Source: Streptomyces sp. NBC_01353
Lineage (GTDB): Bacteria; Actinomycetota; Actinomycetes; Streptomycetales; Streptomycetaceae
Direction: 5' to 3'
DNA length: 64,000 nt
Assembly: GCF_036237275.1 (NCBI RefSeq)
Contig: NZ_CP108352.1
Span: forward strand, 3,534,001 to 3,598,000
Shown: one piece after another, positions 6,972 to 16,174 of the stretch
Layout of the letters: each line of letters starts with the position of its first letter
Position numbering within the stretch: position 1 is the first letter of the stretch
The notes under the pieces: model-generated
Seen by the model: the letters and a program-made list of their open reading frames with translations, nothing else
Told to the model about the DNA's origin: nothing
Database searches by the model: none
Position numbers and translations under genes: made by a program

Positions 6972-8366
6972 TCAGAGGGTGTCCGGCACCGGCAGGGGGC
7001 GCTTCTCGATCGCCGCCGCCATCACCTCGGGGAAGAGGTCCGGGGTGCAGGCGAAGGCCGGGGCGCCGAGCGCGGCGAGGGCGGCCGCGTGCTCGCGGTC
7101 GTACGCGGGAGCGCCTTCGTCCGAGAGCGCGAGCAGGGCCACGAACTGCACGCCCGACGCCTTCATCGCCGCGACCCGCTTCAGCATCTCGTCGCGTATG
7201 CCCCCTTCGTAGAGGTCGCTGATGAGGACGACGACGGTGTCGGCCGGCCGGGTGATCTGCGACTGGCAATAGGCCAGAGCGCGGTTGATGTCGGTGCCGC
7301 CGCCGAGCTGGGTACCGAAGAGGACGTCGACCGGGTCGTCGAGCTGGTCGGTGAGGTCGACGACCGCCGTGTCGAAGACGACGAGCCGGGTCGCGATCGA
7401 GCGCATCGAGGCGAGGACCGCGCCGAACACCGACGCGTAGACGACGGAGGCCGCCATCGAGCCGGACTGGTCGATGCAGAGGACGACGTCCTTCTTGACC
7501 GACCGGGCCGCCCTGCCGTAGCCGATGAGCCGTTCGGGGACGACCGTGCGGTACTCCGGGAGGTAGTTCTTGAGGTTCGCGCGGATCGTGCGGTCCCAGT
7601 CGATGTCCCGGTGCCGGGGGCGGCTGATCCGGGCCGAGCGGTCGAGCGCGCCGGTGAGTGTGGCCCGGGTGCGGGTCGCGAGGCGCTTCTCAAGGTCTTC
7701 GACGACCTTGCGTACGACGGCGCGGGCGGTCTCCTTGGTCGTCTCGGGCATGGCCTTGTTGAGGGAGAGGAGCGTGCCGACGAGATGGACGTCAGCCTCG
7801 ACGGCCTCCAGCATCTCGGGCTCCAGGAGCAGGGTGGACAGGCCGAGCCGCTCGATGGCGTCGCGCTGCATGACCTGGACGACGGAGCTGGGGAAGTACG
7901 TCCGAATGTCACCGAGCCAGCGGGCGACGGAGGGGGCCGAGGCGCCGAGGCCGGCGGAGCGGTCGCGTCCGGTGGAGCTCTTCGTGCCGCGTCCGTAGAG
8001 CGCGGTCAGCGCTCCGTCCATCGCCGAGTCGGTGCCGGCGAGGGAGCATCCCGTGCCGTCCGCCTCGCCGCCGCCGAGGACCAGGCGCCAGCGGCGCAGC
8101 CGCTCATCGTTCCCGGTTCGGGGACCGGCGCCGGCGCCGACTCGTGGGTCGGTGCCGGTTTCTGCACCGGTGCCGGTGCCGGTGCTGGCTCCGGTTCCGG
8201 TGCTGGTGCCGGTTCCGGTGCTGGTGCCGGTGCCGGTTCCGGTGCTGGTGCCGGTGCCGCTTGCGGTTCCCTTCGCGGTTCCGTTCGCGGTTCCGTTCGC
8301 GGTTCCGTTCGCGGTTCCGTTCGCGGTTCCGTTCGCGGTTCCGTTCGCGGTTCCTGTTCCGTTCAT
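6972..8366 (-). CDS. VWA-domain (CoxE/BatA-like) protein with NGTA repeat N-terminus
   Basis: The 464-residue protein has a C-terminal von Willebrand A domain. The metal-binding MIDAS begins DVVLCIDQSGSMAASVVYAS (DxSxS), and the later MIDAS threonine and aspartate appear in GGGTDINRAL and VVLISDLYEGG. Such VWA proteins usually work with MoxR ATPases as metal-dependent adaptors. The first 75 residues are low complexity: seven NGTA-type tetrapeptides, then GT/ST-rich repeats. ATG 8366 overlaps the DUF5682 stop by 4 bp (ATGA), so the two genes are translationally coupled. It is the last gene of the MoxR-DUF5682-VWA operon. Substrate unknown. Confidence 0.9.
   Translation of the reverse strand: MNGTGTANGTANGTANGTANGTANGTANGTAKGTASGTGTSTGTGTGTSTGTGTSTGTGASTGTGTGAETGTDPRVGAGAGPRTGNDERLRRWRLVLGGGEADGTGCSLAGTDSAMDGALTALYGRGTKSSTGRDRSAGLGASAPSVARWLGDIRTYFPSSVVQVMQRDAIERLGLSTLLLEPEMLEAVEADVHLVGTLLSLNKAMPETTKETARAVVRKVVEDLEKRLATRTRATLTGALDRSARISRPRHRDIDWDRTIRANLKNYLPEYRTVVPERLIGYGRAARSVKKDVVLCIDQSGSMAASVVYASVFGAVLASMRSIATRLVVFDTAVVDLTDQLDDPVDVLFGTQLGGGTDINRALAYCQSQITRPADTVVVLISDLYEGGIRDEMLKRVAAMKASGVQFVALLALSDEGAPAYDREHAAALAALGAPAFACTPDLFPEVMAAAIEKRPLPVPDTL
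8160..8355. repeat. In-frame tandem repeats encoding the VWA protein N-terminus
   Basis: Seven copies of the 12-bp unit TTCGCGGTTCCG run from 8272 to 8355, almost without mismatch, and encode Asn-Gly-Thr-Ala on the minus strand. From about 8160 to 8270 a degenerate GGTGCCGGTTCC-type 6/12-bp array encodes the Gly/Thr/Ser run. Copy-number changes of the 12-bp unit would keep the reading frame. Confidence 0.9.
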
Positions 8367-10780
8367 CGGGCCGCCCCTTCCGGCTCGTCGTGTCCCAGCA
8401 GCAGATGCAGGACCGGCAGCACTCCGTCGGCCCGCTCCTCGTCGAGGCTCGCCGCGAAGCCGGGGGTTCCGGCCTCCGGACGGCTCGCGGTGGCGGACGG
8501 GCCTCGTGCGACCAGCTCGCCCAGGGTGCGCCGGACGCCCGGTTCGTACGCGGAGAAGGTGCGCCGGAGCAATGGCAGTACGTCGGTGAAGGTGTCGCCC
8601 GGGACTCCGGTCAGCCAGTCGTCGACCAGGGTGAGCAGCCGTTCGTCGTGGACGAGGATCATGCCGCCTCCGGCGGCACCGCCGACGAAGCCCTCGATCC
8701 AGGCGGCGGCGTCGGCGGGGGCCGTCCCGGGCGAGAGGGCGAGGCCCATGAGCCGTGCCGCCTCGTCCTCGTCGAGGTGCCCCTCGTCGAGGAGCAGCCG
8801 GGCGGCGCGGCCCCGGAGGATCCCGGGCACGGTGTCGCGGTCGGCGAGCTTGCGGAGCACTCCGGTCCAGCGGTCCGTGCGTTCCGTGCTGTCGGGGAGG
8901 AGTCCGAGGGCGCCGTGGACCGCGTCGAGATGGCCGCGCATCTCGGCGGCGGCGTCGGCGTCGAGTCCGGCGCAGGCCGGGGGGAGGCCGACGCAGATCC
9001 GTTCGGCGAGCCCGGCGGCGACCTCGCCGAGCGCGGCGGTGTCGGTGGCGCGGACGTCTCCGTAGCGCAGGGAGCGTGCGAGCGCGGGCAGGGCCTGGGC
9101 GAGGTGCCCGACGTCGGAGTCGAGCGCGGCGCGGTCGGCGAGGGCCGTCATGACGACGGTCAGGGCCTCGCCGAGTCCGGCGAGCAGGCACTGCTCGGCG
9201 AGCGCGGTGACCTCGGCGAGTGTCGTGGCTTCCAGGGCGCGGGCCTCGGCCTTGGCCGTGGCGGCGGAGTCGACGGTGGTGCCCCAGACGCCTGCCTCGG
9301 CGACCCGGACGTGCAGCTCCGGCTCCCAGCGCAGCCGCCAGCTCTCCCGGAAGGTGCCCGTGCTGCCGCGGCCGGCGACGGGCTCGCCCCAGCCGATGCC
9401 GAGCAGCCGCAGCCGGTGCAGCAGTCTGCTGCGGGCGGCGTCGTTCTCCTTGCGCAGATCGAGCTCCAGCTCCCGCTCCTGCGCCTCCGGTTTGAGGCGC
9501 AGCCCGCGCTGGAGCCGGGCGAGGTCGCGCTGGAGCGGTACGGCGGGGGCGTCGGCGGGGACCTCGCCGAGGACATCGCCGACGACGAGGCGGTCGCGGA
9601 CGAGGTCGAGCGGGATGTCGGAGCCGTCGCACATGACGGCCCGTACGGCGTCGGTGGTCTCGCCGAGCCCCGCCAGCGGCCGGCCGCGCATCGTGGCGAG
9701 GGTCTCGGCGAGCCGTACGGCCTCGATGACATGGGCGGAGGACACGATCCAGTCCTCTTCCCTCAGGAGGCCCGCGACCTTGGTCATCCAGCGCTCGACC
9801 GGGCGGTCGGGGGCGGCGAAGAGGTGTCCGTACCAGCCGGGTGCGTCGATGCCGGCGCCGTACCCCGAGCGGCGGGCGAGCCTGCGGTGGGTCCAGGGCA
9901 CCCACGTCATCTCGGTCTTCACCTTGGGCAGGCCCTTGAGCAGGGCTCGGTCGGCTCCGACGGTGGTCTTCCGAGCCAGCGCGGGCACGTGCCAGGCGCC
10001 GCAGACGACGGCCACGGAGTCGCCGAACTCCTTGCGGGCTCCCCGTAGTTGGAGTCGCATGTATGCCTCGCGGATCAGGTCGCGGGCGTGGCCGCCGTCG
10101 CCGTGCGCCTCGCGCAGGGCGCCCATGGCCTCGGCGACCGCCGCGAACGGAGCCGCGGGGTCGGCGGGCGCGGTGGTGCCGCGGAGCTCGATCACGTCCT
10201 CCCACCAGCGCTCGGGGTCGTCGTACCCGGCGGTCCGCGCGAGCTCGCCGATCGGGTCGATCCGCAGCCCCTCGTCCGCCTCGCCGCCCGTGGGGTCGGT
10301 GGCGTCGGCGGCTTCCGTAGCGGTGGCGGCGAGGCTGTGGGCGGCGGGAAGGTCGATGAAGCGCACGGTGGCGCGGTGGGACAGGGCCCAGCGGATCGCG
10401 ACCCACTCGGGCGAGAACTCGGCGAAGGGCCAGAACGCGGCGCGTCCCGGGTCGTCGACGGCGTGGGCGAGCAGCGCGACCGGTGGCCGCATCTCTTCGT
10501 CGGCGGCGAGTGCGAGCAGCCCGTCCGCCTCGGGCGGCCCCTCGATCAGCACGCACGCGGGCCGCGCCGCGTCGAGCGCCCCGCGCACTCCGCGCGCGGA
10601 CCCGGGGCCGTGGTGCCGCACCCCGAGCAACAGCGGCCCGGAGTCCCCTTGTCCGTCGCGTCGCCCGCCGACCGGCGCGGCCGCGGCCCTCGCGCGCCGC
10701 TCCGTCGCCGCGGGCCTGTCCGGTGGGGCCGCGCGGCCCACGGGGGCCTCGCCGGCCGTCACCGCCGCGGGCGTCGTCAC
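8363..10780 (-). CDS. DUF5682 family protein
   Basis: A large soluble protein of 805 residues. Near residues 40-80 it has the family signature LLLGVRHHGPGSARGVRGAL followed by CVLIEGPPEADGL. This region looks like the TraB/erythromycin-esterase-like fold, which is my inference. Other conserved pieces are VVCGAWHVPAL and MTWVPWTHRRLARRSGYGAG; the C-terminal half is alpha-helical and leucine/alanine-rich. No nucleotide-binding motif is visible. The GTG at 10780 overlaps the MoxR stop by 4 bp (GTGA), and its own stop overlaps the VWA start. This fixed order with MoxR and VWA suggests one complex. Biochemical role unknown. Confidence 0.85.
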   Translation of the reverse strand: MTTPAAVTAGEAPVGRAAPPDRPAATERRARAAAAPVGGRRDGQGDSGPLLLGVRHHGPGSARGVRGALDAARPACVLIEGPPEADGLLALAADEEMRPPVALLAHAVDDPGRAAFWPFAEFSPEWVAIRWALSHRATVRFIDLPAAHSLAATATEAADATDPTGGEADEGLRIDPIGELARTAGYDDPERWWEDVIELRGTTAPADPAAPFAAVAEAMGALREAHGDGGHARDLIREAYMRLQLRGARKEFGDSVAVVCGAWHVPALARKTTVGADRALLKGLPKVKTEMTWVPWTHRRLARRSGYGAGIDAPGWYGHLFAAPDRPVERWMTKVAGLLREEDWIVSSAHVIEAVRLAETLATMRGRPLAGLGETTDAVRAVMCDGSDIPLDLVRDRLVVGDVLGEVPADAPAVPLQRDLARLQRGLRLKPEAQERELELDLRKENDAARSRLLHRLRLLGIGWGEPVAGRGSTGTFRESWRLRWEPELHVRVAEAGVWGTTVDSAATAKAEARALEATTLAEVTALAEQCLLAGLGEALTVVMTALADRAALDSDVGHLAQALPALARSLRYGDVRATDTAALGEVAAGLAERICVGLPPACAGLDADAAAEMRGHLDAVHGALGLLPDSTERTDRWTGVLRKLADRDTVPGILRGRAARLLLDEGHLDEDEAARLMGLALSPGTAPADAAAWIEGFVGGAAGGGMILVHDERLLTLVDDWLTGVPGDTFTDVLPLLRRTFSAYEPGVRRTLGELVARGPSATASRPEAGTPGFAASLDEERADGVLPVLHLLLGHDEPEGAAR

Positions 10781-11979
10781 GCGCTCACCTCGCGGCAGGC
10801 GCGGTAGAAGTCCTTCCAGCCGTCGCGCTCCCGGACGACCGTCTCCAGGTACTCCTGCCAGATGACGCGGTCCGCGGCCGGGTCGCGGACGACGGCGCCG
10901 AGGATGCCGGCCGCGACGTCCGCGGGGCGCAGGATGCCGTCGCCGAAGTGGGCGGCCAGGGCGAGGCCGCCGGTGACGACGGAGATGGCCTCGGCCGTCG
11001 ACAGCGTCCCCGAAGGGGACTTGAGCTTCGTACGGCCGTCCGTGGTGACCCCGTCGCGCAGCTCGCGGAAGACGGTGACGATCCGGCGGATCTCCTCGAC
11101 CCCTTCGGGGACGGCCGGCAGGTCGAGGGAGCGGCCGATCTGGTCGACGCGGCGCGCGACGATGTCGACCTCCGCCTCCGGGGTGGCCGGCAGCGGCAGC
11201 ACGACGGTGTTGAAGCGGCGCCGCAGCGCGCTGGAGAGGTCGTTGACCCCGCGGTCGCGGTCGTTGGCGGTGGCGATGAGGTTGAAGCCCCGTACGGCCT
11301 GCACCTCTTGGCCGAGCTCCGGCACGGGCAGGGTCTTCTCGGACAGGATCGTGATGAGCGTGTCCTGCACGTCGGCGGGGATGCGGGTGAGCTCCTCGAC
11401 GCGGGCGGTCAGGCCCTGGGACATCGCGCGCATGACGGGGCTGGGCACGAGCGCGTCCCGGCTGGGGCCGTGGGCGAGCAGCTTGGCGTAGTTCCAGCCG
11501 TAGCGGATCGCCTCCTCGGGCGTCCCCGCCGTGCCCTGCACCAGCAGGGTCGAGTCGCCGCTGACGGCGGCGGCGAGGTGCTCGGAGACCCAGGTCTTGG
11601 CGGTGCCGGGCACGCCGAGCAGGAGCAGCGCCCGGTCGGTGGCGAGGGTGGTGACGGCGACCTCGACGATCCGGCGCGGTCCGACGTACTTCGGTGTGAT
11701 CACCGTGCCGTCCGGCAGCGTGCCGCCCAGAAGATAGGTGGCGACGGCCCATGGCGAGAGCTGCCAACGGACGGGCCGCGGACGGTCGTCGGCGGCGGCG
11801 AGCGCCTTGAGCTCGTCCGCGAAGGCGTGTTCGGCGTGCGGCCGCAGGGCCTCGGCGCCGGATTCGATGCCGGTGTCGCCGCCGGTTCCGACGCCGGATT
11901 CCGTGGCGGTCGGAGCGGCCGCACCGGTGACGCTTCCGGCACCGGGAACGGCGCTCTCGATGGTTTCGGGCACGGTCAT
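10777..11979 (-). CDS. MoxR-like AAA+ ATPase
   Basis: The 400-residue AAA+ protein has a Walker A (LLLLGVPGTAKTWVSEHL), a Walker B-like region (ADVQDTLITILSEKTLPVPE), sensor 1 (GFNLIATANDRDRGVNDLS) and an arginine finger in SSALRRRFNTV. MoxR ATPases act as chaperones for VWA partners, here the product two genes downstream. The first 75 residues are variable, Gly/Thr/Ala-rich. ATG 11979 has an excellent GGAGGGGG site 6 nt upstream. A PafBC-type promoter match (12018-12040) lies 40-60 bp before it, which suggests induction by DNA damage. It is the first gene of the three-gene operon. Confidence 0.92.
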   Translation of the reverse strand: MTVPETIESAVPGAGSVTGAAAPTATESGVGTGGDTGIESGAEALRPHAEHAFADELKALAAADDRPRPVRWQLSPWAVATYLLGGTLPDGTVITPKYVGPRRIVEVAVTTLATDRALLLLGVPGTAKTWVSEHLAAAVSGDSTLLVQGTAGTPEEAIRYGWNYAKLLAHGPSRDALVPSPVMRAMSQGLTARVEELTRIPADVQDTLITILSEKTLPVPELGQEVQAVRGFNLIATANDRDRGVNDLSSALRRRFNTVVLPLPATPEAEVDIVARRVDQIGRSLDLPAVPEGVEEIRRIVTVFRELRDGVTTDGRTKLKSPSGTLSTAEAISVVTGGLALAAHFGDGILRPADVAAGILGAVVRDPAADRVIWQEYLETVVRERDGWKDFYRACREVSA

Positions 11980-12017
11980 GGATCCCCCTCCAGATCGTTC
12001 GACCTGATGTGTGATCC

Positions 12018-12040
12018 ACCGTGCACCATGCCACTGACAA
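12018..12040 (-). promoter_or_regulatory. PafBC-type (RecA-independent DNA-damage) promoter of the MoxR operon
   Basis: On the minus strand the sequence reads TTGTCAGTG, 8 nt, CACGGT. The consensus described for mycobacterial RecA-independent damage promoters is TTGTCRGTG-N8-TANNNT. The upstream element is a perfect match and the spacer is exact; the first base of the -10 is C instead of T. Transcription would start near 12011 and give a leader of about 32 nt with the GGAGGGGG site. Confidence 0.7.
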
Positions 12041-12089
12041 TCGGCCGTCGCCGCAGGTCGGAGGCTAAGTCCGCACGTTCGTAAGGGAG

Positions 12090-12506
12090 TCAGCCGGCGA
12101 TCGGGGAGACCGCGACGCAGCCACCGGCCATCGCCTGCTCGCCCTTCGCCTCCTTGATGACCTTGCCCTTGTGGATGACCTTGCAGGTGAGGTCGGCCGC
12201 CGGGTCGAGCGAGAGCGGCATGACGGCGGGCGGCATGATGCCCTTCAGCGTCACCGTCTTCGTCCACGGCGTGGTCGGCTTGGTCTCCTTCTCGAGCTTC
12301 GGCTCCATGGCCGAACCGCTGCCACCGTGGAACTCGATCGACTCGATGTTCTTGCCGGTGACCTCGTACGTGACCTCGTAGGTCTCGTTGACGGCCTTGT
12401 CGACCTGGTCGGCGGCCTTGTCCGCGGCCTCGGAGCAGGCGCCGAGACCGAACGCGAGGCCGGTGACGGCGAGGACCGAGACGGCGGTGCGGATGGTGCG
12501 CTTCAT
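12090..12506 (-). CDS. MmpS-like lipoprotein
   Basis: The 138-residue exported lipoprotein has a signal peptide MKRTIRTAVSVLAVTGLAFG and a lipobox LGAC with the lipidated cysteine at about residue 24. The mature part resembles MmpS family transport-accessory domains: VTYEVTGKN, a Gly-rich turn, TPWTKTVTLKG and a disulfide-capable pair (LTCKV and GGCVAV). The ATG at 12506 is chosen because the signal peptide starts there; upstream codons are not conserved in type. It lies between the MoxR and SWIM arms, on the same strand as MoxR and 110 bp upstream of it. Whether it belongs to that system is unclear. Confidence 0.82.
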   Translation of the reverse strand: MKRTIRTAVSVLAVTGLAFGLGACSEAADKAADQVDKAVNETYEVTYEVTGKNIESIEFHGGSGSAMEPKLEKETKPTTPWTKTVTLKGIMPPAVMPLSLDPAADLTCKVIHKGKVIKEAKGEQAMAGGCVAVSPIAG

Positions 12507-12543
12507 GAGGTGTCCCCCAGGGAGTTCTGTGGTTGTCCCCCGC

Positions 12544-12572
12544 ACACAATCGCAAAGGAAAGGTAAAGTCAA
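12544..12572 (-). promoter_or_regulatory. Possible vegetative promoter of the MmpS-like lipoprotein
   Basis: On the minus strand TTGACT, 17 nt, TTGTGT lies about 40 bp before the ATG at 12506. The -35 is good and the -10 is weak. Confidence 0.35.
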
Positions 12573-12621
12573 ATACCTTGTCCGGTCGACCTCGATCGCA
12601 AAAAACAGCAGGTCAGGATCG

Positions 12622-12644
12622 TTGTCAGTGGGGCCCCCTACCGT
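12622..12644 (+). promoter_or_regulatory. PafBC-type (RecA-independent DNA-damage) promoter of the SWIM operon
   Basis: The sequence TTGTCAGTG, 8 nt, TACCGT matches TTGTCRGTG-N8-TANNNT at every defined position. The -10 ends 7 nt before the ATG at 12652, so transcription should begin at or beside the start codon and give a leaderless mRNA. This explains why no ribosome-binding site is seen. Confidence 0.78.
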
Positions 12645-12651
12645 CGTGGAC

Positions 12652-14016
12652 ATGGATACACAGGGGGTGCGCTGGACGGCGGATCAGGTGCTGGCTCTGG
12701 CTCCTGACGACGCCTCACGCAGAGCGGGGAGCAAGCTCGGCACGGCCGGGCCGTGGTCGAGTACGGGAGGCAGCGGCGAGGGGGCCGTCTGGGGTCTGTG
12801 CCGGGGCAGCGGCAGCACGCCGTACCGCACGGTCGTCGACATCACGGGCCCGGCGTATTCGTGCAGCTGCCCCAGCCGGAAGTTCCCGTGCAAGCACGCG
12901 CTGGGGCTGCTGCTGCTCCGGGCGGCGGACGGAGCGGACATCGGGGGCGGCGACGCGCCGGACTGGGCCGAGCAGTGGCTGGAGGGCAGACGTAAGCGCG
13001 CCGAGGGCGTACGGGCGCGCAAGGCGGACGGCTCCGGCCGGGCGGGCACCGCCGATCCCGAGGCCGCGCGCCGCCGGGCGGAGCGCCGGGCGGCTCGGAT
13101 CACCGCGGGCGCGGAGGAGTTGGAGCATCGGCTCGCCGATCTGCTGCGGGGTGGTCTGGCCTCGGCCGAGCAGTCCGGATACGGCCTGTGGGAGGAGACC
13201 GCGGCCCGGATGGTCGACGCCCAGGCTCCCGGACTCGCGGGCCGGGTCAGGGACTTGGGTGCGATTCCGGGCTCGGGGCCCGGCTGGCCGGTCCGGCTCC
13301 TGGAGGAGTGCGCGCTGACCCATCTCCTCGACCGCGCCTGGCTGTCCGTGGACCGACTCCCCGGCCCGCTGGCGGCGACCGTCCGTACCCGGGTGGGCCT
13401 GCCCGCTCCGCCGCAGGGCGCCGCGGTGCGGGACCAGTGGCTGGTGCTCGCCCAGTACGACTCCACGGACGGCAAGCTGACGACGCGTCGCATCTGGCTG
13501 TACGGCAGGGAGACCGGGCTCACGGCGCTGCTCCTCTCCTTCGGAGCCATGGGGCGCGCACCCGAACTGGGCCTTCCGGTGGGCGTGATGGTCGACGCCG
13601 CGCTCACCCCGCACGCGGGTGCGGGTGCGCTGCGGGCCGAGCTGGGCGAGCTGTTCTCGGCGCCCACCCCGTTCGACGCCCCGCCCCGGGGCGGCACGGT
13701 CGGGGACGCTCTCACCGCCTACGGCCTCGCCCTGCGCGAGGACCCCTGGCTGGACTCCTGGCCGGTGACGCTCGCCGATGTCGTCCCCATACCGACGGAC
13801 CACGGCTGGCAGCTCGCCGACGCGGCACCGGTCGCCGGCGGCGGCGAGGCGCTGCCGCTCAGCGGTCCCGCGCTCGGGCGGCCTGGCCTGTGGCGGCTCG
13901 CCGCGCTCTCCGGAGGCGGGCCGGTGACCGTCTTCGGGGAGTGCGGGCACCGCGGGTTCACCCCGCTAGCCGCCTGGTCCGCCGACGCCCCCGGAGAGAC
14001 GGTCCCGCTCCACTGA
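12652..14016 (+). CDS. SWIM zinc-finger protein
   Basis: The 454-residue protein has a SWIM domain near residues 60-85: YSCSCPSRKFPCKHALGLLL carries the C-x-C-xn-C-x-H metal ligands. SWIM domains bind zinc and are linked to DNA or protein contacts. A charged Arg/Ala helix follows (about residues 105-160), then a mixed alpha/beta region of unknown fold that ends with VFGECGHRGFTPLAAW. ATG 12652 is taken as the start because the PafBC-type promoter places the transcript start there; an in-frame GTG at 12646 is possible. The next gene, DUF5691, starts 38 bp on. The pair is divergent from the MoxR arm, with the MmpS-like gene between. Confidence 0.87.
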   Translation: MDTQGVRWTADQVLALAPDDASRRAGSKLGTAGPWSSTGGSGEGAVWGLCRGSGSTPYRTVVDITGPAYSCSCPSRKFPCKHALGLLLLRAADGADIGGGDAPDWAEQWLEGRRKRAEGVRARKADGSGRAGTADPEAARRRAERRAARITAGAEELEHRLADLLRGGLASAEQSGYGLWEETAARMVDAQAPGLAGRVRDLGAIPGSGPGWPVRLLEECALTHLLDRAWLSVDRLPGPLAATVRTRVGLPAPPQGAAVRDQWLVLAQYDSTDGKLTTRRIWLYGRETGLTALLLSFGAMGRAPELGLPVGVMVDAALTPHAGAGALRAELGELFSAPTPFDAPPRGGTVGDALTAYGLALREDPWLDSWPVTLADVVPIPTDHGWQLADAAPVAGGGEALPLSGPALGRPGLWRLAALSGGGPVTVFGECGHRGFTPLAAWSADAPGETVPLH

Positions 14017-14054
14017 GTCCGTACGACCGCCCGACGACAGCCTGGAGGACCTCG

Positions 14055-15641
14055 ATGGACGCCTGGGAAGAACTCGTCACCTCGGCGCTGCTCGGCACCG
14101 ACCGCCGGCCGCCCGCGCTCCCGAAGACGGTGGCCGGGGATGCTCCCGTCGCGCTGCTGGACGCCGCGGCGCTGCACACCGTACGGCGCAGGGCGGGGCT
14201 GCGGCCGGGGCCTGCCGCCCCCGCGCCTGAGCCCGCGCCCGCGGACACCCGCAGGCCCCTGCCCGAGCCCGCCCGCCACCGTCTTGCCCAGCTCCTCGCG
14301 GGCCGCGCCGCGGCCGCGCCGTCCGGGGGGCGGCGCGGGGCCGCGCCCGACCTCGCCGAACTGCTCCCGCAGTGGCTCGCCGCCGCCGGCGACCACGGCT
14401 ACAAGGCGCCTGCCTCGGCGCTGCCCGCCCTCCTCGACGCCGCCCGCGCCCGTACCGATCTGCGGCCCCAGGCCCTCGCGCTCGCCGGGCCGCGCGGGCT
14501 CTGGCTGGCCCGGCTGAACCCGGAGTGGAAGTTCGCCCTGCGCGGTGCGGGAGGGAGTTCGGCGCTCCCCTACCCCCGGGACGGCGAGGCGGTCCGGGCG
14601 CTGTGGGAGGAGGGGCTGTTCGCCGAGCGGGTCGCGCTGCTCGCCTCCGTACGGACCGAGGACCCTGCGGCCGCCCTGGAGCTGCTGCGTTCCACATGGA
14701 CGGCCGAGCGCGCCGAGGACCGGCTGATGTTCCTGGACTCGCTGCGGGCCGGGCTCTCCGGCGCGGATGAGGAGTTCCTGGAAGCTGCCCTGTCCGACCG
14801 CAGTCGCAATGTGCGCTCCACCGCCGCCGAGCTGCTCTCCGCGCTGCCCGACTCCGCGCTCGCGGGCCGCATGGCGCGGCGTGCCTCGTCCTGTGTCTCG
14901 CTGGACCGCACGAAGGGGGCCGAGACCGTCGTCGTCGAAGCCCCGCACGAATGTGACGAGGCGATGCAGCGGGACGGGCTGGTCCCCACCCCGCCTGCCG
15001 GCCGCGGCGAGCGGTCCTGGTGGCTGGGCCAGCTGGTCGAGTCGGCGCCCCTGTCGTGCTGGCAGGCGCGGTTCGGGGGGCGGGCGCCCGAGGAGATCGT
15101 CGCCCTTCCGGTCGCCGACGACTGGCAGGGGGAATTGCACGCCGCCTGGTGCCGGGCGGCGGTACGGCAGCGGGACGCCGGCTGGTCCCGGGCCCTGCTC
15201 GGCGCCCCGGCCGCCCCACCGGCGACCGGTCCCGGCATCGCGTCCCTGGCGGAGCGGGCGAAGCTGCTCTCGACGCTCCCGGACGAGGAGCGGGCCCGAT
15301 GGGTCGCCTCGTTCATCGCGGCCCACGGCCTGTCGGAGGCGTTCCAGCTGCTCGGCGTGTGCACGGTGCCCTGGGCGGAGCCGCTGGGCGGGGCGGTGAT
15401 CGACGCCCTGGACATCGCACGCGAGGCGGGCAGCTATCCCTGGAGCTTCAGCGGGGTGATGGGCCTCGCGGAACGCTGCCTGTCCCCGGACGCGGCGCCC
15501 CAGCTGGAATCCCTGACCGCCCTGCCCGCAGAACCGGAGGACGCCTCCCCAGGAGCCGGCAGCTACTGGTCGGAGGCCTTCCAGCGCCTGGTGTCGACCT
15601 TGCGCCTACGGGCCACGATGCGAGCGGAACTCGCGGGGTAG
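14055..15641 (+). CDS. DUF5691 family protein
   Basis: The 528-residue cytoplasmic protein starts MDAWEELVTSALLGTDRRPP, the family hallmark; LLGTDR recurs in DUF5691 proteins. The middle contains helical repeats that read like HEAT or armadillo units (AALELLRSTWTAERAEDRLM and SDRSRNVRSTAAELLSALPD), so a scaffold role is plausible. A GGAGG site sits 6 nt before ATG 14055. It is the second gene of the SWIM-DUF5691 operon. Known bacterial neighbourhoods of DUF5691 include SWIM, MoxR, DUF5682 and VWA genes as I recall; biochemical function is unknown. Confidence 0.85.
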   Translation: MDAWEELVTSALLGTDRRPPALPKTVAGDAPVALLDAAALHTVRRRAGLRPGPAAPAPEPAPADTRRPLPEPARHRLAQLLAGRAAAAPSGGRRGAAPDLAELLPQWLAAAGDHGYKAPASALPALLDAARARTDLRPQALALAGPRGLWLARLNPEWKFALRGAGGSSALPYPRDGEAVRALWEEGLFAERVALLASVRTEDPAAALELLRSTWTAERAEDRLMFLDSLRAGLSGADEEFLEAALSDRSRNVRSTAAELLSALPDSALAGRMARRASSCVSLDRTKGAETVVVEAPHECDEAMQRDGLVPTPPAGRGERSWWLGQLVESAPLSCWQARFGGRAPEEIVALPVADDWQGELHAAWCRAAVRQRDAGWSRALLGAPAAPPATGPGIASLAERAKLLSTLPDEERARWVASFIAAHGLSEAFQLLGVCTVPWAEPLGGAVIDALDIAREAGSYPWSFSGVMGLAERCLSPDAAPQLESLTALPAEPEDASPGAGSYWSEAFQRLVSTLRLRATMRAELAG

Positions 15642-16174
15642 CCGACTGCCGTGGCGGCCGGCCGCCGAACCCACGGGATGGCCACGGCTCTGCCACACGG
15701 CCGCCGCTCCGGCGACAGCCCGGCGCGGCCGGTGCGAGCACCCGGCGACGGGGCGACGGCCTGGCGGCACGGGCGGGCGGGCCCGGCGGTCCGGCACCCA
15801 GCACCCAGCACCCAGCACCCAGCACCCAGCACCCAGGCGACATTGCCACCCGACGCACACCGGGCCGAGCCGCCTGTGGGCCACGCGGGATGCGCCGGAC
15901 AAGAGTCTGCGGGACGTTGCGGGCCCCACGGGCCCCACCCACCCCTTCGGACCTCGACCGCAAGTCGGGCCGAGCACGCCCGTCGGGGGCTCCAAAGGCG
16001 CTGGATGGGCCGGGCAAGAGCCGGGGCATAGCGGGCCAGGCCCGCCCGTGGACCTGCTCCGCAGGCGCCACGCTGGATCAGCTTGGCAGGCAGCGGGGAC
16101 CCGGCGGGCCAAGGGGCGCCCGGCGCCGCCCCGGCGGTCGACGGGTCCAGCCCGCCCGCCCCCGCCCCGCAGGG
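15642..16174. other. Long convergent intergenic region with repeats, no gene seen
   Basis: This 533-bp stretch lies between the convergent DUF5691 and icmB genes. It holds a 14-bp palindrome GGCGGCCGGCCGCC (15653-15666), the CACCCAG array (15795-15836) and a weak hairpin GCGGGCC-N-GGCCCGC (16031-16045). Open frames here have poor codon composition and no recognisable domains. Confidence 0.5.
15795..15836. repeat. Six perfect tandem copies of the heptamer CACCCAG
   Basis: The heptamer repeats start at 15795, 15802, 15809, 15816, 15823 and 15830 without a mismatch. The array lies in non-coding DNA, so its length may vary between strains. Confidence 0.95.

Follow-up and report, generated by a model that had tools for sequence, protein, structure and literature searches.

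A five-gene MoxR-VWA cassette of the YehL family behind DNA-damage-type promoters in Streptomyces

Introduction

In the 64,000-nucleotide stretch of Streptomyces sp. NBC_01353 analysed here (contig NZ_CP108352.1, positions 3,534,001 to 3,598,000; hereafter the window), genes for a MoxR-type AAA+ ATPase, a DUF5682 protein and a VWA protein run in one direction, genes for a SWIM zinc-finger protein and a DUF5691 protein run in the other, and each arm starts behind a sequence of RecA-NDp/PafBC type. The locus raises the question of whether these are chance neighbours or parts of one machine and, if the latter, what such a machine would be for. A sequence-only reading had proposed an undescribed, two-armed damage-response machine or, alternatively, a defence system triggered by damage. 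Our comparisons showed that the five genes form one conserved unit, which in Streptomyces and many other actinobacteria lies behind a predicted promoter of RecA-NDp/PafBC type. The unit's place immediately downstream of a promoter of the DNA-damage type suggests that it helps cells to cope with damaged DNA, and we lean, with moderate confidence, towards a core AAA+ machine of the YehL family that is induced by damage and remodels its target. The proposal was thus supported in part: its single unit, its promoters and its motor held, and its words "undescribed" and "two-armed" did not.

Gene content and genomic context of the cassette

Among 248 actinobacterial genomes, DUF5682 was present in 24 and DUF5691, above its cut-off, in 22, and all 22 of the latter also carried DUF5682 within a few kilobases by coordinates; five more actinobacterial genomes had DUF5691 matches below the cut-off and no DUF5682. 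We compared 101 loci, made up of the best 80 of 552 confirmed relatives and 21 others, which over-represent the window's own version of the cassette (type A) because they were chosen by DUF5682 similarity. All five genes were together in 94 of these loci. They lay on one strand in the order SWIM-DUF5691-MoxR-DUF5682-VWA in 78 and in the divergent layout in 16, all from Streptomycetaceae or the window's genus; the other seven loci lacked part of the set, four of them being cut by contig ends, while three from cyanobacteria had DUF5682 only, two of these near a contig edge. The co-occurrence and fixed order expected from the sequence alone are thus found across genomes, and the idea that the five genes are unrelated neighbours was rejected on both counts. 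As the defining architecture of the cassette, the two-armed layout was likewise rejected, given the single-strand majority; the divergent arms evidently arose when a single operon was rearranged in Streptomycetaceae.

The single-operon order is annotated in Deinococcus and Rhizobium and, as far as DUF5682, in Methylosinus, and the cassette occurs in actinobacteria, cyanobacteria, deinococci, planctomycetes and proteobacteria. In a Hymenobacter record, the DUF5691 gene is 1009 residues long and a separate SWIM gene is missing; this gene is probably a SWIM-DUF5691 fusion and would add a sixth phylum, Bacteroidota. SWIM and DUF5691 also match within one open frame in two genomes (L045 and L053; L and G numbers are our handles for loci and genomes), and one of the related cassettes described below, type C, has an apparent DUF5682-VWA fusion. 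Because of the co-occurrence, the fixed order and these apparent gene fusions, we regard the five genes as one functional unit.

DUF5691 was present in 115 of 121 genomes of the genus, and sucC lay within about 8 kb of the cassette in all 16 other Streptomycetaceae loci, which is the profile of a core chromosomal locus. This context bears on the alternative that the cassette is a ternary MoxR-vWA system for conflict or phage defence that is armed by DNA damage and in which DUF5682 serves as effector. Such systems have been described (Pfam bpMoxR description), the bpMoxR profile gave the window MoxR 23 bits, though below its cut-off of 27, several cassette types coexist in the genus, and 32 records of a plasmid collection, some of which are as large as chromosomes, contain copies. 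Against this, besides the genomic context, stand a comparison with the PADLOC-DB 2023 component profiles, which gave no real match and nothing better than a weak similarity of the ATPase to IetA (E=0.016 and 0.042), and a search of viral contigs, in which none of 30 candidate stretches was confirmed as a relative. For these reasons we consider a core machine of the damage response more likely than a mobile defence against phage, and the defence alternative, although still to be counted as a rival, appears distinctly improbable. A single phage-collection record, MT835988.1, an unverified 14-kb "Bacteriophage sp." faecal clone, contains a DUF5682 relative with 28% identity (L194, 1447-3618) and is perhaps bacterial DNA misfiled.

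Promoters of the two arms and the motif across the genus

For the promoter search, we took the consensus to be TTGTCRGTG-N8-TANNNT and adapted it to TTGTCRGTG-N8-YANNNT after the window's own sites. The adapted pattern occurs exactly twice in the window, once before each arm, with 0.01 sites expected from shuffling; the SWIM-arm site matches the RecA-NDp type exactly and the MoxR-arm site has a C at the first base of its -10 element. The SWIM-arm promoter ends 7 bases 5' of the SWIM ATG, and the mRNA of this arm is probably near-leaderless. The MoxR-arm -10 element begins with CA and not TA (12018-12023) in all 12 same-genus loci, which may leave this arm more reliant on the activator.

In the phylum sample, all 12 type-A loci of the same genus, the window's among them, have an exact, correctly spaced TTGTCAGTG before both arms, and the promoter pair was present in 16 of 17 loci once five further Streptomycetaceae loci were added. 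Across 16 Streptomycetaceae loci, column identity was near complete over the motif and dropped upstream of it. When the 95 compared loci with a SWIM match were taken together, the motif upstream of SWIM reached at least 10 of 12 positions in 63, compared with 26 of 1010 windows drawn at random from these loci, and was perfect in 20, five of which lie outside Streptomycetaceae (three Nocardiopsis, two Streptosporangium). The shared damage-type promoter that had been read on both arms is therefore conserved far beyond the species. A chance promoter match was rejected on the window shuffling, the random windows, the conservation across loci and the reversed-control counts that follow.

This 8.57-Mb genome has 35 sites for the motif and one for the reversed control pattern, and all 61 genomes counted in the genus had 20-79 sites versus 0-3 in the control. 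Two of the 35 sites are the cassette arms, and the downstream frames of 20 of the remaining 33 were scanned with Pfam. Among the products of these 20 frames are RecA, DnaX, topoisomerase IV subunit A, an Lhr-type helicase, a DNA polymerase III beta-like protein, a uracil-DNA glycosylase, an MGMT-like protein, PhoH, a second SWIM protein and a putative RadA-like protein, the last on our own reading of its domains. A PafC-type helix-turn-helix protein is also encoded in this genome (111 bits). In S. coelicolor, RecA-NDp promoters are on record for recA and for the UV-inducible gene SCO6735 (PMC5087735), and passages of PMC5087735 and PMC8223512 back the promoter type rather than its letters. For S. 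venezuelae, a passage of one study states that an initial search suggested that the M. smegmatis motif was not conserved there (PMC9380542); our counts speak for a wide occurrence of the motif in the genus, and they bear on the question of whether Streptomyces has a LexA-independent damage response of PafBC type.

Three of the sites deserve separate mention. The second SWIM gene has an exact RecA-NDp-type promoter of its own (L110, 17484-18920, minus strand; G000:C1:7343898) and a DUF7824/DUF7825/DUF6493-like gene comes after it; a 20-kb stretch around it, which covers little of its upstream side, showed no relative of MoxR, DUF5682 or VWA. A SAV_6107-like HEPN gene lies 47 bases behind a site of the CA form (L091, 1571-2098; G000:C1:6338769). 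Another site precedes the gene for ribosomal protein S6 (L086, 1143-1463; G000:C1:4395291). The S6 operon also holds ssb in many bacteria, and this site may serve ssb further down.

Relationship to the YehL family

The label "undescribed" does not hold as it stands: by sequence comparison it is a paralogue of E. coli yehI-L-M-P-Q, and its MoxR protein therefore falls in the known YehL subfamily, one of seven named MoxR subfamilies according to a passage in PMC3893208. The MoxR protein is nearer to YehL than to other MoxR proteins, and its gene shares an operon with DUF5682, VWA and SWIM genes. A type-A MoxR profile scored 288-711 bits with cassette types A-D and YehL, compared with 36.5 (L221) and 15.6 bits (L211) for the two other rows reported, and gave no row at E<=1e-3 for RavA (L209), L210, L212 or L224. 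In a MoxR tree that held few other MoxR-like proteins, with NorQ- and CbbQ-type proteins left out, 28 YehL-family rows stood apart at 100/99 support, with long-branch warnings. Types A (support 97/100), C and D each formed one clade in this tree, and type B did not, L055 standing apart.

The three paralogous types differ in their companions. Type B keeps the E. coli order and is headed by a YehI-like gene. In type C, MoxR and the DUF5682-VWA fusion follow a DUF4132 gene, which was identified by a Pfam scan of one of the seven clusters. In type D, VWA-MoxR and a divergent DUF5682 follow genes that had no Pfam match over the cut-off in the three of five clusters scanned. All 11 sampled type B, C and D clusters of the window's genus (two B, six C and three D) start behind the motif, three of them with one mismatch. 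In type C it lies several kilobases upstream of MoxR, before the DUF4132 gene, and a single transcript presumably covers the cluster. Outside the genus, the type D of G178 has the motif and G082 (type B-like, at a contig end) lacks it. Up to three paralogous versions were found in one sampled Streptomyces genome. The genome studied here also has a type-D cassette (L061, 4788-12183; G000:C1 about 0.50 Mb), upstream of which are a copy of the motif with one mismatch and two genes that match no Pfam family above the cut-off, and separate yehI-type clusters occur in the genus at L058 and L059.

The individual proteins and a possible mechanism

The MoxR-VWA motor that had been read from the sequence has its key residues intact. 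In MoxR, the Walker A motif GVPGTAK, N239 and R254/R255 are at least 97% conserved (98 sequences), and the VWA protein has a complete metal ion-dependent adhesion site (MIDAS), with D299, S301, S303, T358 and D384 at least 97% conserved (96 sequences). The four residues of the SWIM CxCx6CxH motif (C71, C73, C80 and H82) are invariant in 45 sequences; a search of the PDB with the SWIM profile gave only V-ATPase subunit G, at E 0.68-0.95. The VWA protein had no PDB match at E<=0.01 and matched ViaA weakly, with 22 bits versus a 500-bit cut-off. Its N-terminal tail is of low complexity, with short repeats (GTANGTAN... and GTGTST..., window 8120-8360), and may vary between strains.

By sequence, the solved structures nearest to MoxR are those of Midasin and NorQ, and each suggests a different role for the cassette. 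Midasin chains were the best matches (E=8e-12 over 74 residues) and would suit a ribosome- or translation-linked remodeller that works by Midasin-like AAA+/MIDAS logic and is switched on during damage recovery. However, the similarity is limited to one AAA segment and, with the S6 site perhaps belonging to ssb, no other link from the cassette to ribosomes was found; we judge this explanation very improbable indeed. The NorQ match, together with the CoxE-type VWA domain, would suit a chaperone that, like NorQD, CoxDE or RavA-ViaA, matures one enzyme or supplies it with a cofactor. DUF5682 would then be the client or partner, and the cassette would be under damage control only because genotoxic or oxidative stress inactivates that enzyme or makes it necessary. 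MoxR-VWA pairs of known function are of this chaperone or maturation kind (PMC3893208), and so is NorQD. However, no common enzyme gene flanks the unit in E. coli, Deinococcus, Rhizobium and Methylosinus, the four flanks that were viewed, and the unit carries its own SWIM/DUF5691 pair. We know of no such pair in the RavA-ViaA, NorQD and CoxDE systems, and we regard a chaperone dedicated to one enzyme as unlikely.

DUF5682 has an N-terminal alpha/beta domain with RHH, IEGP, FIDLP and GAWHVP motifs, followed by a C-terminal alpha-solenoid. An AlphaFold2 model of residues 48-805 (pLDDT 88, pTM 0.83) had structural matches in its solenoid, and sequence searches of the PDB gave no match of any kind, either with the single sequence (E<=1) or with a profile (E<=10). 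The N-terminal domain was barely probed because the VIA-align list was filled by the C-terminal solenoid, and the lack of TIKI-fold entries in that list is no evidence against a TIKI fold. Among yardstick families, TraB and ChaN searches each found one genome of 149; relatives of E. coli YbaP were confirmed in none of three viral candidates and occurred in 20 plasmid records, and no relatives of an actinobacterial TraB protein were found in plasmids. The N-terminal domain is perhaps a TIKI/TraB-like hydrolase.

In the damage-induced remodelling machine that we favour, a build-up of single-stranded DNA would lead PafBC to switch on both arms, and the MoxR ring, coupled through the MIDAS of the VWA protein, would remodel a target chosen by the SWIM/DUF5691 pair. 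DUF5682 would be a dedicated third partner, with an alpha/beta domain whose conserved His/Glu/Asp/His set may make it a hydrolase and an alpha-solenoid that would dock to VWA. Its role is likely to be the clearing or reactivating of protein or nucleoprotein in damaged cells rather than phage killing. A broader view, possible although we rather doubt it, makes YehL-type machines a conserved post-damage disassembly system, in which the AAA+/MIDAS motor would feed SWIM/DUF5691-selected targets to DUF5682 as a new hydrolase and four Streptomyces paralogous versions, all PafBC-controlled, would have exchanged recognition modules.

A number of observations weigh against the favoured reading. L191 has the SWIM-arm site and no recognised MoxR-arm site, and G160, a genome of the same class, has types C and D, both without the motif. 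Damage control of the cassette is not universal: among the 95 loci are 32, from two cyanobacteria, a planctomycete, Thiofilum, five Rhodococcus and others, in which fewer than 10 of 12 motif positions match. By eye, no damage box was seen upstream of E. coli yehL or of the Rhizobium or Deinococcus genes (the DNA upstream of yehI being unread), and damage control was rejected as a universal feature outside actinobacteria. Motif sites in this genome also precede genes with no evident part in repair, namely those for two transporters, a HEPN protein, a pentapeptide-repeat protein, a glyoxalase, an oxidoreductase and ribosomal protein S6. No Pfam family was assigned to three of the 20 scanned downstream frames, and some sites have no convincing gene downstream. 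For DUF5682 itself, a profile comparison with a seven-row TraB set gave a probability of 1.6% and no significant match, and the model had no Foldseek match at E<=0.001.

YehL-type machines have been orphans since the MoxR family was subdivided. If the broader view is true, they would count among the larger components of the damage response in actinobacteria that still lack characterisation. For a five-gene unit present in at least five phyla, our findings offer a directly testable function, the DNA-damage response, and the same promoter on several paralogous cassettes allows well-aimed deletion and pull-down tests.

Layout of the locus

The five genes, their two divergent arms and the 4-bp overlaps had been read correctly, and coordinates and Pfam identities agree (Table 1). 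The minus arm runs MoxR-DUF5682-VWA with 4 bp at both stop/start overlaps, and the plus arm runs SWIM-DUF5691 with a gap of 38 bp. A lipoprotein-like gene between the arms had been omitted. It has a relative in one of 16 other Streptomycetaceae type-A loci (L181, 69% identity), where it likewise sits between both promoters; the promoters are 581 bp apart here, 566 bp in L181 and 36-61 bp in 14 others. Because the relative occurs in only that locus and separates the promoters there too, we consider the gene an insertion and not part of the cassette. In PADLOC-DB 2023 it had only a weak hit to Specificity_I (E=0.032). Beyond the DUF5691 gene, at window 15795-15840, CCAGCACCCAGCACCC is repeated in a short tandem array.

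Table 1. Genes and predicted promoters of the cassette (window coordinates)
Feature	Position	Strand	Basis or remark
VWA_CoxE gene (YehP-like)	6972-8366	minus	Pfam VWA_CoxE E=6e-62
DUF5682 gene (YehM-like), GTG start	8363-10780	minus	Pfam DUF5682 E=8e-301
MoxR/AAA_5 gene, YehL subfamily, type A	10777-11979	minus	Pfam AAA_5 E=9e-37
RecA-NDp/PafBC-type promoter, MoxR arm	12018-12040	minus	TTGTCAGTG-N8-CACGGT
Lipoprotein-like gene (138 residues), between both arms	12090-12506	minus	probably outside the machine
RecA-NDp/PafBC-type promoter, SWIM-DUF5691 arm	12622-12644	plus	TTGTCAGTG-N8-TACCGT, exact match
SWIM zinc-finger gene	12652-14016	plus	Pfam SWIM E=1.5e-6
DUF5691 gene	14055-15641	plus	Pfam DUF5691 E=2e-175

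Comparison with known systems

E. coli yehI-L-M-P-Q has, in one run, homologous genes for MoxR (YehL), a DUF5682-like protein (YehM) and VWA (YehP) and also a SWIM gene (YehQ), and the window proteins match their E. coli counterparts with 228 bits for MoxR, 225 for VWA and 131 for DUF5682. However, the E. coli operon has YehI (DUF4132) in front, SWIM last and no DUF5691, whereas in the window SWIM and DUF5691 lead and there is no DUF4132, so that the cassette is not of the E. coli yehILMPQ arrangement. The window SWIM protein and YehQ gave no match at E<=1e-5 and therefore share the domain name only. The pairing of an AAA+ ATPase with a MIDAS-bearing VWA partner is common to RavA-ViaA, NorQD and CoxDE, of which NorQ is a sequence match to MoxR; unlike these systems, the window cassette has three further conserved partners and no known client enzyme.

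MoxR-vWA ternary conflict systems, the subject of Kaur et al. 2020, reportedly combine MoxR, vWA and a third protein, and the window likewise has MoxR, vWA and a third protein. A term search of the main text of that paper (PMC7159879) found none of DUF5682, SWIM, DUF5691, YehM, EreA and TIKI. In the open-licence PMC literature, we found no paper under the names DUF5682 or DUF5691, no functional study of the five-gene unit and no report of the cassette as a member of the RecA-NDp/PafBC regulon, which is no proof of absence; an excerpt from a Caulobacter library lists a SWIM gene among biofilm-screen mutants. With that regulon the cassette shares the promoter sequence and spacing, which in this genome it has in common with recA. 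The YehL family itself was already known, and what is new is an actinobacterial version of this unexplained MoxR-VWA family that, by its promoters, is under damage control.

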